DNA of 63,740 nucleotides from a virus. A program made the position numbers and the translations under genes. Of this stretch, positions 20,884-24,751 are shown in pieces (position 1 is the stretch's first letter; each line of letters opens with the position of its first letter). The stretch covers positions 1 to 63,740 of IMG/VR virus record IMGVR_UViG_3300033571_013671. The stretch is one strand, 5' to 3'. The notes beneath the pieces are model-generated. The model was given only the letters and a program-made list of their open reading frames with translations, did not search any database and was not told the origin of the DNA.

Positions 20884-21267
20884 TTAGAATGTTAAAGTTA
20901 TTGTATCTGTACTAGAGAAAGTACCCTCAGTTACAGTATATGTTAATTCGACAATTATTAATTCTTCAATATCATCATTTCTAAATGAAATATCATTAAC
21001 TAATAAATTTGGTATATAAAGTTTTATAGAATCGTTTAAACTTTCTCTAATTTGTTCGTGAGTTATTTTGTCATTAGGTTCGAAAATAAATTTTTTCAAA
21101 TCACTACCAAAATCCGGAAGATAAAGTCTTTCACCCTTATTAGTTAAAAGAAGATGTAATAAATCCGCCCTAATAGCGTCTTTATCAGTTTTATTCATTT
21201 GAAAATAAAAACCATTATCACTATCCCTAAAAGGAAAATCTATATTTATATACCTTGTCTTTGCCAT
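20884..21267 (-). CDS. Baseplate wedge protein, gp25/GPW family
   Basis: 127 residues, matching T4 gp25 (132). The core LLTNKGERLYLPDFGSDLKK followed by FIFEPND and a helical stretch is diagnostic of the GPW/gp25 family, including the conserved xGxR/E-R and P-x-F-G-[SC] elements. These proteins sit where sheath and wedge meet and help sheath assembly start. The gene lies directly upstream of gp6-like. The leader carries an ATATTTAT element 6 nt from the ATG and no Shine-Dalgarno sequence. Confidence 0.9.
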   Translation of the reverse strand: MAKTRYINIDFPFRDSDNGFYFQMNKTDKDAIRADLLHLLLTNKGERLYLPDFGSDLKKFIFEPNDKITHEQIRESLNDSIKLYIPNLLVNDISFRNDDIEELIIVELTYTVTEGTFSSTDTITLTF

Positions 21268-21323: not shown

Positions 21324-23207
21324 TCATTCACATTTAACAGACATGTTAAATATAGTTCTATCTAATGGTGAAAATACTAAAATAATAAGATCAAATTTTT
21401 CTGTTTCTTTATCAATTGTAAAAGAAGCATTTGTTTTCATAATACCTTTATATTTAACAATATTGTCTTTTATATTTCCAGTCTTTATAATTTCATCGGT
21501 AATACTTTCTGCACTATTATCTCCGTCTTGAAAAATACTTTTAACATCTAACTTACCACCTTCACCTTTAATTGCTGCATTTATACTTTCTAATAAACCT
21601 TCAGTTTTTTTATAGATAATTAATTCACCAACAAAATTTCTACGAACATTATTCATTTCACTATAATCATTATCCCCATTCGATAATGATTGTTTAATTA
21701 ACCCTTTCACATAAGTAGATTGTATCGGTAACATCTTTTTCTTTTCTTCAACACTTAACGCAACTTGTGTATATTCATCATTTACTACATCACCTCTAAA
21801 ACCACTAAAGTATTCTTGATCACCATATTTAATGTAATAGGCATCAGGTACAACTACTGAGTCAAATGAAATTGTTATAGAATTACCCTCACCCGCAGGA
21901 AAACTACTTTTTAAACTTTTTGCCACAAAATTATTTTGTTTTGTACCTCTACCTCCCTCTATTTTAGATTCAAAACCACATTTTAATGGTGGCTTTGGTT
22001 TAACACAATTACACGCATCTGCGGTTGGTTTAATGAACCCTTCAGGACAATCACATTTTTGAGTTTCCTCATTAAATTTCATACCTTCAGGACATTTACA
22101 TTTACCATCCTCATCACGTTTCATACATTTATCAGGACAAGGTTCTTCTTCTTTCTTTTTACACTCACAATTTTCTGTTTTTGTAAAACCTTTAGGACAT
22201 TCACATTCTTTAGTTTCTTCATTATATGTCATTCCTTCAGGACAATCACATTTTTTAGTCTCTTTATTAAATGTCATACAAGGATCTGTACATGTGTTAC
22301 ATTCACAATTTTCATCAGCTTCTTTACCATTAGGGCAATAACATTTACCATCTTTTTCAGTTAAACCATCTTTACATCTACATTTTTTTGTTTCAACATC
22401 TCTAATCATACAATTAGGACAAGGGTCATAAAATTTAAAACATACCTTAGCGTCTATCATCACAAATTGTCCATGATTTAAAGTACCTGCCTTTATTTCA
22501 TTAGAAACTGATTTATGTGTATCTGTTAAATCTTTAGTATAAACTGATCCTGAAGTTGAGTCTTTTATTTCTTTCATTATTTTAGCCTCATCAAACTTTA
22601 CTTGTCTTTCTATACCAGCTTCTTTTAATTTTTTTAATAGTTCTTTTTTTACTTTTTCTGCTCTTCTATACGCTAAATCTCTATTACTTTTACTACCACC
22701 AGTATTTGTATATTTTTTCTTAGCGTCATAACCTTTACAACTACTACTCCATTTTTGTAAAGATGAAGTACCTTTAGTTACATCATATTCATTACAATAG
22801 TCTGGTTGTACTGCACTACCATAAAAATTACTAGCCCCACCAAATACATTTACATCTTCTAAAGTTAACTCACCGTTTGTCATTGACCCAAACTCTTTTT
22901 CTACCAATTCTATAAATTTATCTTTAAATTTAATAGGTACGTCAGTATTTACATCATTATCGGTTTTATAAGGTTCTGTATTAGTAACAAACATACATTT
23001 AGTATCCGAAGATTTAGGTTTTTCTGAATCAACAGGTTTATTTTCTGCAGGTTTTTCTGAATCGACAGGTTTATTTTCTGCAGGTTTTTTATCTGTAGGG
23101 GTTGGTGGGTTACCAACAGAAGATGTACTTACTTCATTAAGAATAGTTCCCTTTTCATATACCATAAGGGATCTCATTCTTTGTATTTCTTCTAAAAGAT
23201 TTTTCAT
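21324..23207 (-). CDS. Tagged virion protein with EGF-like Cys repeats, 627 aa
   Basis: I place the start at ATG 23207. A longer frame reaches 23393 but would run antisense through the promoter and start of the rightward protease gene. The N-terminus LLEEIQRMRSLMVYEKG followed by ILNE is one of the shared [LI]-x-E tags. Next come two 11-residue repeats (KPAENKPVDSE). A mixed domain with SNRDLAYRRAEKVKKELLKK (about residues 180-290) resembles the helix of OmpA-like domains. Residues about 260-410 hold four or five EGF-like/Cys-loop repeats of the form C-x-C-P-E-G-M-x-[FY]-N-E-E-T-x-[KE]-C. The C-terminal 210 residues are a beta-rich unknown domain. EGF-like repeats are unusual in phage proteins. 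Likely a virion protein contacting host surface or peptidoglycan; inference only. Confidence 0.65.
   Translation of the reverse strand: MKNLLEEIQRMRSLMVYEKGTILNEVSTSSVGNPPTPTDKKPAENKPVDSEKPAENKPVDSEKPKSSDTKCMFVTNTEPYKTDNDVNTDVPIKFKDKFIELVEKEFGSMTNGELTLEDVNVFGGASNFYGSAVQPDYCNEYDVTKGTSSLQKWSSSCKGYDAKKKYTNTGGSKSNRDLAYRRAEKVKKELLKKLKEAGIERQVKFDEAKIMKEIKDSTSGSVYTKDLTDTHKSVSNEIKAGTLNHGQFVMIDAKVCFKFYDPCPNCMIRDVETKKCRCKDGLTEKDGKCYCPNGKEADENCECNTCTDPCMTFNKETKKCDCPEGMTYNEETKECECPKGFTKTENCECKKKEEEPCPDKCMKRDEDGKCKCPEGMKFNEETQKCDCPEGFIKPTADACNCVKPKPPLKCGFESKIEGGRGTKQNNFVAKSLKSSFPAGEGNSITISFDSVVVPDAYYIKYGDQEYFSGFRGDVVNDEYTQVALSVEEKKKMLPIQSTYVKGLIKQSLSNGDNDYSEMNNVRRNFVGELIIYKKTEGLLESINAAIKGEGGKLDVKSIFQDGDNSAESITDEIIKTGNIKDNIVKYKGIMKTNASFTIDKETEKFDLIILVFSPLDRTIFNMSVKCE
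23022..23087 (-). repeat. Two tandem 33-bp repeats coding KPAENKPVDSE
   Basis: Copies at 23022-23054 and 23055-23087 differ by one base (aatcaac versus aatcgac). They form a Pro/Lys/Glu linker after the N-terminal tag. Near-identity implies a recent duplication. Confidence 0.85.
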
Positions 23208-23222: not shown

Positions 23223-23253
23223 TTTGTGTTTTAAAAAAAAACTATTATATTTG
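23223..23253 (+). promoter_or_regulatory. Bacteroidota-type promoter for the rightward protease gene
   Basis: TTTG (23223-23226), a 19-bp spacer, then TATATTTG (23246-23253) match the Bacteroidota primary-sigma consensus TTTG-N19-TAnnTTTG. Transcription would start about 7 nt later, leaving a short A-rich leader before ATG 23278 with no Shine-Dalgarno sequence. It drives the rightward protease gene. Confidence 0.75.
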
Positions 23254-23277
23254 TTCTTATATAAATACAAAACAACT

Positions 23278-23841
23278 ATGAAAAATTTAATATTATCGTT
23301 ACTATTTTTAAATAGTTTTGGAATTTTTTCACAAAAGTTATTTACTGAAGAAGAATTTTTAATTGCGTCCGATAATGGTAGGAGGTGGCACAAAGATATT
23401 AAAATTTATCTTTATGGTAATTATACCAAAAAAGACTCTTTGGATGTGGTTGAGAATATCAGTATTTTTAAAACTTTAATTAAACCTATAAATATATCTT
23501 TAGTTAAAAATAAAGACTCCTCAAATGTAGTTATTTATTTTTTAAGTGATAAAGATTATGTACGAATTTTTAAAGATGATTATATTTACTGTAAAAAAAC
23601 TATAGGTTTAACTTATAATTATGGTGTTAAAAATATAACTAAATCTACAATTCAAATAGATATTATAGAAAACAATGAATTTAAATCATTTTCTAATACA
23701 ATAAGACATGAAATGTTTCATATGTTAGGATTTACCCATTATGAAAAAGAAAATAATTCTATATTAGATCATAACCATTATCTTACAAATAAAGATATTG
23801 AGATGATAAAATATCTTTATTCTAAAAAATTTAATACATAA
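23278..23841 (+). CDS. Secreted metzincin-type zinc protease, 187 aa
   Basis: One of only two rightward genes seen. ATG at 23278 is preferred over an upstream TTG because it starts a clean signal peptide (MKNLILSLLFLNSFGIFSQ), with the FSQ ending common in Bacteroidota exports, and because the promoter lies just upstream. The zinc site is H144-E-M-F-H148-M-L-G-F-T-H154, exactly the metzincin HExxHxxGxxH pattern. NSIL at 160-163 falls where a Met-turn (S-I-M) would be, but the Met is replaced by Leu. At 187 residues it is a minimal protease without a visible propeptide. The promoter, direction and signal peptide suggest a host-derived cargo gene expressed early and exported to the periplasm or outside. 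The substrate is unknown. Confidence 0.8.
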   Translation: MKNLILSLLFLNSFGIFSQKLFTEEEFLIASDNGRRWHKDIKIYLYGNYTKKDSLDVVENISIFKTLIKPINISLVKNKDSSNVVIYFLSDKDYVRIFKDDYIYCKKTIGLTYNYGVKNITKSTIQIDIIENNEFKSFSNTIRHEMFHMLGFTHYEKENNSILDHNHYLTNKDIEMIKYLYSKKFNT

Positions 23842-23846
23842 AAAAA

Positions 23847-23868
23847 AATCCCTACTTTTGTAGGGATT
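23847..23868. terminator. Bidirectional Rho-independent terminator
   Basis: AATCCCTAC, a TTTT loop, then GTAGGGATT form a 9-bp perfect stem with A-run on one side and T-rich sequence on the other. It separates the convergent protease and DUF5522-like genes. The stop codon of the latter lies inside the stem. Confidence 0.85.
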
Positions 23869-24085
23869 CATTTAATTTTGTATTTCCTCTTTCGTGTTTG
23901 GGTTCATAAGGACAATGTAAACAACCATTACCACAACATCTACCTCTTTTAATATGATATTCTTCTGTCATAACCATTCTACCCTGATTATCATAATAAA
24001 ACTCATTAGGTTGTAATTTAGGCCCAAATTCTCTTACATAAAGTTGTTGTACCCAATCTTTAGATGCTCCTACATTCATAATCAA
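23852..24085 (-). CDS. DUF5522-like small Cys-rich protein, 77 aa
   Basis: The segment EEYHIKRGRCCGNGCLHCPY (about residues 41-60) matches the DUF5522 signature (TE-x-x-H-x-K-R-G-x-C-C-G-x-G-C-x-H-C-P-Y), a small protein common in Bacteroidota and some other bacteria. The four Cys probably bind metal. Upstream residues FYYDNQGRMVMT match the usual preceding strand. Function of the family is unknown. It lies between an HNH endonuclease and a converging protease gene, so it looks like part of a small island of acquired genes. The stop is embedded in the terminator hairpin. Confidence 0.75.
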   Translation of the reverse strand: MIMNVGASKDWVQQLYVREFGPKLQPNEFYYDNQGRMVMTEEYHIKRGRCCGNGCLHCPYEPKHERGNTKLNESLQK

Positions 24086-24139: not shown

Positions 24140-24751
24140 TCATTTCCCCATGCTACTTTCATAATATTTTGTATTTAAACCCCATTTAAAATTATTTAAT
24201 AATTCAATATCATAATCACAGTTTTTATGATTTTCAGAAACTTTATTACATAAAAATATAAACATATTTTGTTCAAAAATATTTTTCATCACGTTAATAT
24301 GTTTATGTACCCATTGGACATTTCCTATTTCATATCCCTTTTTACTGTCTATTCTATCTAACGAAGCAGTATATGTTTTATCATTCCAACTAATCGGTAG
24401 TGTAATTTCAATTCCAGATAAATTACATTTCCCATTTTGTTTTTTATATAAATCATATATGTATTCTTTTGTTAAATCAAAACTTAAATTTTTTCTTATG
24501 ATTCTCTTAGATATTTTATTTTTAGTTAAATTGTACCATAATTCACCATTTATACCACCTTCTTTATTTACATTATTAATACAACCACAAGATACTATTT
24601 TTCCACTACGTAAATGGGTACCAAAAATATCTTTAATTTTTCCACATTCACATTCACATTTATATTTTATATGACCATTTTTGTTTTTGTGTAATTCAGA
24701 AATAACTTTTAATTTACCAAAAATTCTACCAACCATTTCAATTTTTTTCAT
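24140..24751 (-). CDS. HNH homing-type endonuclease, 203 aa
   Basis: The N-terminal Cys motif (GRIFGKLKVIS, then CECECG and SCGC, residues about 8-57) is the zinc or DNA-binding module often found before phage HNH domains. The nuclease core is CNLSGIEI, then SLDRIDSKKGYEIGNVQWVH with H-x-N-x-M-K (about residues 112-155), containing the expected D-R-I-D, G-Y, G-N and final N-x-M-K elements. Free-standing HNH genes are selfish elements in T4-like phages, often next to nucleotide-metabolism genes, as here beside the ribonucleotide reductase. It is flanked by terminators on both sides, consistent with a separate insertion. The leader has an ATATTTAT element at 24777-24785. Confidence 0.85.
   Translation of the reverse strand: MKKIEMVGRIFGKLKVISELHKNKNGHIKYKCECECGKIKDIFGTHLRSGKIVSCGCINNVNKEGGINGELWYNLTKNKISKRIIRKNLSFDLTKEYIYDLYKKQNGKCNLSGIEITLPISWNDKTYTASLDRIDSKKGYEIGNVQWVHKHINVMKNIFEQNMFIFLCNKVSENHKNCDYDIELLNNFKWGLNTKYYESSMGK

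Follow-up and report, generated by a model that had tools for sequence, protein, structure and literature searches.

Introduction

How does a phage whose genes nearly all point in one direction come to carry a single gene for a secreted protease-like protein on the other strand, and what would such a gene do during infection? The question is raised by the DNA analysed here, a 63.7-kb fragment of a T4-like phage (the window). The genes of the window encode a tail sheath, baseplate wedge proteins (gp25- and gp6-like), a UvsX-like recombinase, a DnaB-like helicase and a ribonucleotide reductase, and nearly all lie on the - strand; names without a cited family match come from reading of the sequence. 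The sole convincing + strand gene encodes a protein with a metzincin-type zinc motif (23278-23841), and the remaining + strand ORFs overlie - strand genes. An earlier note had drawn attention to 23223-23841, a span running from the -33 element of the promoter to the stop codon, as a lone gene that runs against its neighbours and may be a host-derived moron. The orientation is as described, with all neighbours on the - strand; the other parts of that description are taken up below.

Judged by the UvsX-like protein, the named phages closest to this one belong to Immutovirus, a genus of Flavobacterium phages. Flavobacterium phage immuto resembles the window phage in its UvsX-like protein (44.8% identity) and gp6-like protein (27.6% identity) and infects Flavobacterium, but it lacks the metzincin (tblastn) and its baseplate-block gene order is different. 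In the best explanation, offered tentatively as a whole, the carriers of the metzincin and its divergent neighbour are T4-like phages of flavobacteria.

The metzincin gene and its product

The ORF as listed begins at a TTG codon (23224) and has 205 codons. The ATG at 23278 was taken as the start because M1-K2 is invariant in 18 aligned members (alignment A2), giving a protein of 187 aa (23278..23841, + strand) that is described here from its sequence, alignment, fold model and dN/dS. The protein begins with MKNLILSLLFLNSFGIFSQ, which reads as a typical flavobacterial signal peptide. The signal peptide MKNLILSLLFLNSFGIFS (23278..23331, + strand) is followed directly by Q19, invariant in the 18 rows of A2. 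All full-length members have a signal peptide, and the metzincin has no lipobox Cys at +1. Sequence and alignment thus agree with the proposal of a Bacteroidota-style signal peptide, and the product is predicted to reach the periplasm via host Sec. The protein ends just past the catalytic domain and therefore has no space for a type IX secretion domain.

The motif HEMFHMLGFTH had been reported from the sequence and is found at residues 144-154 (23707..23739, + strand), followed by NSILD. Residues H144, E145, H148, G151 and H154 of this zinc-binding and catalytic motif are invariant in A2. The suspected Leu at the Met-turn position is indeed present (Leu163; 23764..23766, + strand). The same position in relatives holds Leu, Ile or Met, with Met solely in L016 and L020. 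MMP-2 has been shown to tolerate Leu for Met at the Met-turn with minor loss, and Erwinia protease C was compromised (PMC1266349). Relatives of the metzincin were found in 46 viral contigs; among those aligned, down to 40% identity, the ligands of the motif are always the same. The dN/dS values across pairs are 0.07-0.33, the exception being one near-identical pair (0.53), and the relatives evolve under purifying selection. The product is accordingly described as a putative metzincin-type protease with an intact catalytic motif.

Fold and family membership

The AlphaFold model of the metzincin, clearly the best of the five obtained, has a pLDDT of 75.5 and a pTM of 0.75. The best Foldseek match of the model is karilysin (4in9, E 6.9e-6), and VIA-align against MMP-7 gives Z 14.3 and rmsd 3.0 over 142 residues, with ties across MMPs. 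The predicted fold is matrixin-like, as in MMPs and karilysin. With respect to the metzincin clan, the protein has the zinc motif HExxHxxGxxH/D and, in the predicted model, the catalytic-domain fold. The Met of the Met-turn is replaced by Leu163, and the protein is therefore named metzincin-type and not filed as a classical metzincin. Against Pfam M10 (Matrixin M10A) it scores 14.0 bits, under the cut-off of 24. Matrixins of M10A carry Ser after the third His; this residue is Tyr in the window and Y, Q, H or I in relatives. Searches of PHROGs, NCBIfam, PADLOC and PDB sequences assigned the metzincin to no family. No match was found in plasmids or, at E 1, in 50,697 named phages, and a distant family member used as query gave only matches at E 5 or worse.

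The family with which homology could be established, and the closest one among cellular proteins, is DUF2927 (PF11150). The Pfam score of the window protein (22.7 bits) is below the cut-off of 26.2; comparison of the phage family with DUF2927 by hhalign gave a probability of 99.4% and E 6.6e-22 over 155 columns, nearly the whole mature protein. Homology over the domain is thus indicated by profile comparison. Both families show the signatures RW..DIKI, N..IYF, G and LY. They differ at the active site, where DUF2927 has EExxQxxGxxND and SIF and the phage protein has HExxHxxGxxH and SI[LIM]. By eye, a lipobox or a hydrophobic stretch at the N-terminus can be made out in several cellular DUF2927 proteins.

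Bacterial relatives, which the earlier note had proposed to seek in Bacteroidota, were searched for in 240 (family), 399 (order) and 395 (class) genomes, sets that overlap. The first genome scan gave no match and the second a single contig. About 20 cellular Bacteroidota homologues, retrieved via the phage profile or the Pfam model, all have EExxQxxG and lack the zinc ligands. The EExxQxxG seen in all Bacteroidota DUF2927 members examined is replaced by HExxHxxG in the window protein. Across the three genome sets the matches examined are of the EExxQ type only, besides L048 and a contig-end fragment (L052). The HExxH and EExxQ types form two sides of the tree (support 100/100) with long branches between them. 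Midpoint rooting was used for drawing only and does not tell which motif is ancestral; the metzincin fold would make HExxH the ancestral type.

L048, a contig of a Chryseobacterium MAG, holds the single complete close bacterial copy. It groups with phage L027 (91/81) within the phage clade, and the two sit in a well-supported group of eight. This nesting suggests phage-to-cell transfer or a misbinned contig. The L048 gene (L048:2903-3460) lies between MORN-like and LRR genes and has neither the phage promoter nor the companion gene described below. The proposal that the metzincin is host-derived is not supported by these results, given that the cellular homologues, whose active site is altered, form another branch and that the sole complete close bacterial copy falls inside the phage clade. 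L052 is a bacterial contig, with an adenine phosphoribosyltransferase gene upstream, that ends in 211 bp (L052:1483-1693) 99% identical to the start of a phage metzincin from the leader onward; as a possible assembly chimera (or a transfer), it was set aside.

Some phages carry true DUF2927 genes. The copy at L042:5503-6171 (E 1.3e-13) encodes a secreted protein with EEITQ for HExxH, and others occur in L088, L090 and L089 (L089:4959-5627). Copies with intact and changed motifs adjoin in L041-L043, and the L089 stretch has a DUF2927 copy without a metzincin. A model of the phage DUF2927 copy gave a VIA-align Z of 12.6; as metzincins were included in its alignment, it adds little independent support for the DUF2927 fold. 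The Bacteroidota members of DUF2927 (L083-L087, L050-L063, L077-L082) look like a pseudo-metzincin family.

Promoter, leader and terminator

The metzincin gene is preceded by a candidate promoter of the host sigma-A type (23223..23253, + strand), in which TTTG (23223-23226) and TATATTTG (23246-23253) are separated by 19 nt. Transcription is predicted to start at about 23258. The Bacteroidota primary-sigma consensus has been described as TTTG/TAHHTTTG, with the -7 element at -12 to -5 (PMC6847099), and TTTG-19-TATATTTG fits this consensus. The window sequence by itself leaves the promoter unproven because the pattern count is at chance (TTTG-N17-21-TANNTTTG, 5 found vs 5.0 expected), and the window-wide count was rejected as evidence. 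The promoter is made convincing by two other observations. The -7 element TATATTTGT is invariant in 17 diverse aligned upstream regions, and TTTG-N17-21-TATATTTG occurs 45 times in six related contigs, against 2 for the reversed control. The Bacteroidota promoter claimed for this gene is thus borne out by conservation, with its pattern frequency in the window at the chance level. In L016, L017 and L039, a CAGTTT...AAACTG-like inverted repeat lies between the -33 and -7 elements and is a possible operator.

Is this promoter foreign to the phage? In a 254-kb relative, most promoters of this kind are upstream of genes in the first 133 kb, outside the structural block. Host-type promoters are thus found mostly in the non-structural arm, and the metzincin, in the structural block, carries the promoter type of the other arm. 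The suggestion that the gene is expressed apart from the lytic programme is unsupported, as the same promoter type precedes many other genes of this relative. The metzincin promoter looks like a member of the phage's own host-sigma, probably early, class.

The 5' leader of the metzincin contains a second element, TATTTATA (23260..23267, - strand), a candidate for the phage-type promoter that serves the divergent tail gene. On the metzincin strand it reads TATAAATA, which is invariant in 17 aligned sequences. In the 254-kb relative the motifs ATATTTAT/TATTTATA are over-represented ahead of gene starts, and they also precede many genes of the window; the control labelled 'rev' in this motif count was the same string as one of the motifs and was disregarded. 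The TATTTATA element is likely the promoter of the divergent gene, judging from these patterns, and the overlap of both promoters could switch the metzincin off late. A T4-type late promoter on the metzincin strand (TATAAATA) was considered and dropped, because the opposite strand gives TATTTATA and the element is similar to the one that the phage itself uses upstream of its genes.

Downstream of the metzincin stop codon lies a hairpin terminator (23847..23868, + strand; z -4.6). The hairpin is probably bidirectional, serving the convergent metzincin and DUF5522 genes, and its better T-run is on the - strand. Several different stem sequences occupy the same hairpin site in relatives.

The companion gene and the two-gene cassette

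Divergent from the metzincin and adjoining the baseplate genes is a gene for a Cys-rich protein of 627 aa (21324..23207, - strand; MKNLLEEIQRMRSLMVYE...), referred to here as the companion. Its conserved parts are an N-terminal MKNLxEExxRxKxLMVYE and a C-terminal domain (alignment A6). Searches with the companion gave nothing in PHROGs and nothing significant in Pfam or PDB, and the latter two lent no support to an OmpA-like motif that visual reading had suggested. Its position and orientation beside gp25 and gp6 indicate that it is probably a virion or tail protein. The two genes are flanked on the left by the gp25-like baseplate wedge subunit (20884..21267, - strand; PHROG 261, E 3.4e-19) and on the right by a DUF5522 small protein (23852..24085, - strand; PF17653, E 2.4e-17), whose gene is convergent with the metzincin. 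An HNH endonuclease gene (24140-24751) adjoins DUF5522 in the window and is also present in some relatives without the cassette (L120, L130, L131, L153).

Eighty loci around the neighbouring gp25 gene were surveyed and collapsed at 95% gp25 identity. The common gene order is helicase, NrdJ, DUF5522, gp25 and gp6, and the interval between DUF5522 (or NrdJ) and gp25 usually holds nothing, the tail gene, or the metzincin together with the tail gene. Both genes are present in 11 clusters (including a mixed two-member cluster, L154/L155) and absent from 14; two clusters have the tail gene only (L143 and L152) and none has the metzincin only. The Fisher p of these counts was not used as a test because clusters share ancestry. 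The most direct comparison is that of L154 and L155, which are 98.5% and 98.6% identical on either side of an insert of about 2.4 kb in L155 that is exactly the metzincin and tail gene. The pair was therefore acquired or lost in one piece, on at least one recent occasion. Eight contig fragments without the metzincin at this site were searched whole, and none had it elsewhere. The tail gene of L152 (L152:4310-5938) encodes a protein without most of the Cys-rich repeats of the metzincin-linked versions, a single case.

The metzincin is thus not the lone gene it had been taken for, as in the surveyed phage loci it never occurs without a divergent gene of about 600 aa. The description of a moron fares better. 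L154 and L155 show a clean insertion between genes that are adjacent in a related phage, the cassette appears by sequence to have its own promoter and terminator, and the promoter type suggests expression from host sigma. The gene can thus be called moron-like, without the host origin that had been attached to it. L089 has a rightward gene of 211 aa (L089:6952-7587) with a signal peptide and no Pfam match, divergent from a gene starting MKKIKTLNEEIKRIKSLF; on the evidence of this case, the structural block may be a preferred site for the insertion of genes for secreted proteins.

Proposed function and alternatives

The preferred reading, put forward tentatively, is that of a moron-like cassette in which a periplasmic metalloprotease made from a host-sigma promoter would act in superinfection exclusion or receptor destruction tied to the companion. 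Host RNA polymerase with its primary sigma factor would transcribe the metzincin upon phage entry; a promoter read by this factor would allow the protein to be made from the start of infection. The product would be exported by Sec to the periplasm, where its zinc site would cut an envelope protein of the infected cell (periplasmic or in the outer membrane). Since the metzincin is linked to a tail gene, the substrate that suggests itself first is the receptor of the tail protein or else the tail protein of an incoming phage. The target may thus be a surface or periplasmic protein used by the companion, or the companion on an incoming sibling phage. Cleavage would block superinfection and wasted re-adsorption, and the phage-type element for the divergent structural gene, located in the metzincin leader, could shut the metzincin down later. 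It is also possible, though less probable, that the genes form a self-immunity pair, in which the host-expressed periplasmic protease would destroy the cassette's own tail protein (or its receptor) on later siblings and gene linkage would keep the specificity. Several observations speak against exclusion. Co-inheritance could result from joint acquisition without shared function; the tail gene manages without the metzincin in L143 and L152, and L048 has the metzincin without the companion; and an early promoter would also suit host takeover, or a protein that builds up slowly towards lysis.

The last of these points leads to the main rival, a role in lysis, which is considered unlikely. The protease would build up in the periplasm and weaken the envelope by attacking peptidoglycan-linked or outer-membrane proteins, speeding lysis or virion release. 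Periplasmic export fits such a role, and there is a precedent in the Listeria Mtz-Tim pair, in which the secreted, phage-derived metzincin Mtz makes cells more sensitive to phage lysis, an effect that depends on its HExxH glutamate (PMC8235301). Mtz, however, acts together with a lipoprotein partner, and phage copies of Mtz adjoin holin and lysin genes (PMC8235301), whereas the metzincin here has no adjacent lipoprotein or lysis gene, a partner in the baseplate block and a host-sigma type promoter. A general function in lysis also accounts less well for the linkage to one particular virion-type gene than exclusion or an action on the receptor does. Host takeover or counter-defence is rated lower still. 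An early periplasmic protease would remove a host envelope stress or defence protein, which the host-type promoter and secretion signal would suit, but on this reading the metzincin would be so strictly paired with one tail gene only because the two happened to be acquired together. A PADLOC search was empty, which is neutral on this proposal.

Two further explanations have a small probability. The protein may be a non-catalytic metzincin fold that acts as a periplasmic binding protein, like its EExxQ cousins in DUF2927. Its homology to that family, in which the 20-odd members examined lack the HExxH ligands, and the residue other than Met at the Met-turn in most phage members are in keeping with this. 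Homology to a non-enzymatic phage family lacking the conserved His residues had been named in the earlier note as grounds for rejecting its reading; this applies in part, in that DUF2927 is homologous and without these residues, but every phage metzincin examined keeps them. Retention of HExxHxxGxxH by all phage metzincins to 40% identity is hard to explain for a dead enzyme, and the tolerance of MMP-2 for Leu weakens the argument from the Met-turn. Least probable of all is a host-derived cargo gene that serves the host or nutrient release and not infection. The flavobacterial-type signal peptide and promoter and the complete copy on the bacterial contig L048 would agree with cargo, but L048 is nested in the phage clade, and the matches examined in the bacterial genomes were otherwise of the EExxQ type, bar the fragment L052.

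Comparison with known systems

A secreted phage metzincin is of a known kind, and the two-gene cassette is its most surprising feature. If the preferred reading of exclusion is true, a lytic phage would be guarding the infected cell in a new manner, by a protease for superinfection exclusion or receptor destruction that is encoded beside the matching tail gene. The phage family also ties DUF2927, a Pfam family of unknown function for which no paper naming it was found in the literature searched, to the metzincin fold, and it suggests that the cellular DUF2927 proteins are related to a protease but inactive or altered.

Karilysin and the matrixins (M10A) share the predicted catalytic-domain fold with the phage protein, which is unlike M10A in its variable residue after the third His, its Met-turn Leu and the lack of a conserved Cys/Asp before the domain. 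The Listeria Mtz-Tim system (PMC8235301) shares with the window a secreted metzincin from phage-related DNA and the involvement of a second gene. A TIMP-like lipoprotein is absent beside the metzincin of the window, where the neighbours are the DUF5522 gene and the 627-aa gene, the latter with no signal peptide or lipobox by eye. The envelope effect of Mtz-Tim is HExxH-dependent, and an effect of this kind is proposed for the phage metzincin here. Mtz-Tim combines its metzincin with a TIMP-like lipoprotein and CI/Cro-type control; the window combines a Cys-rich companion of the baseplate block with a host-type promoter and a Gram-negative host.
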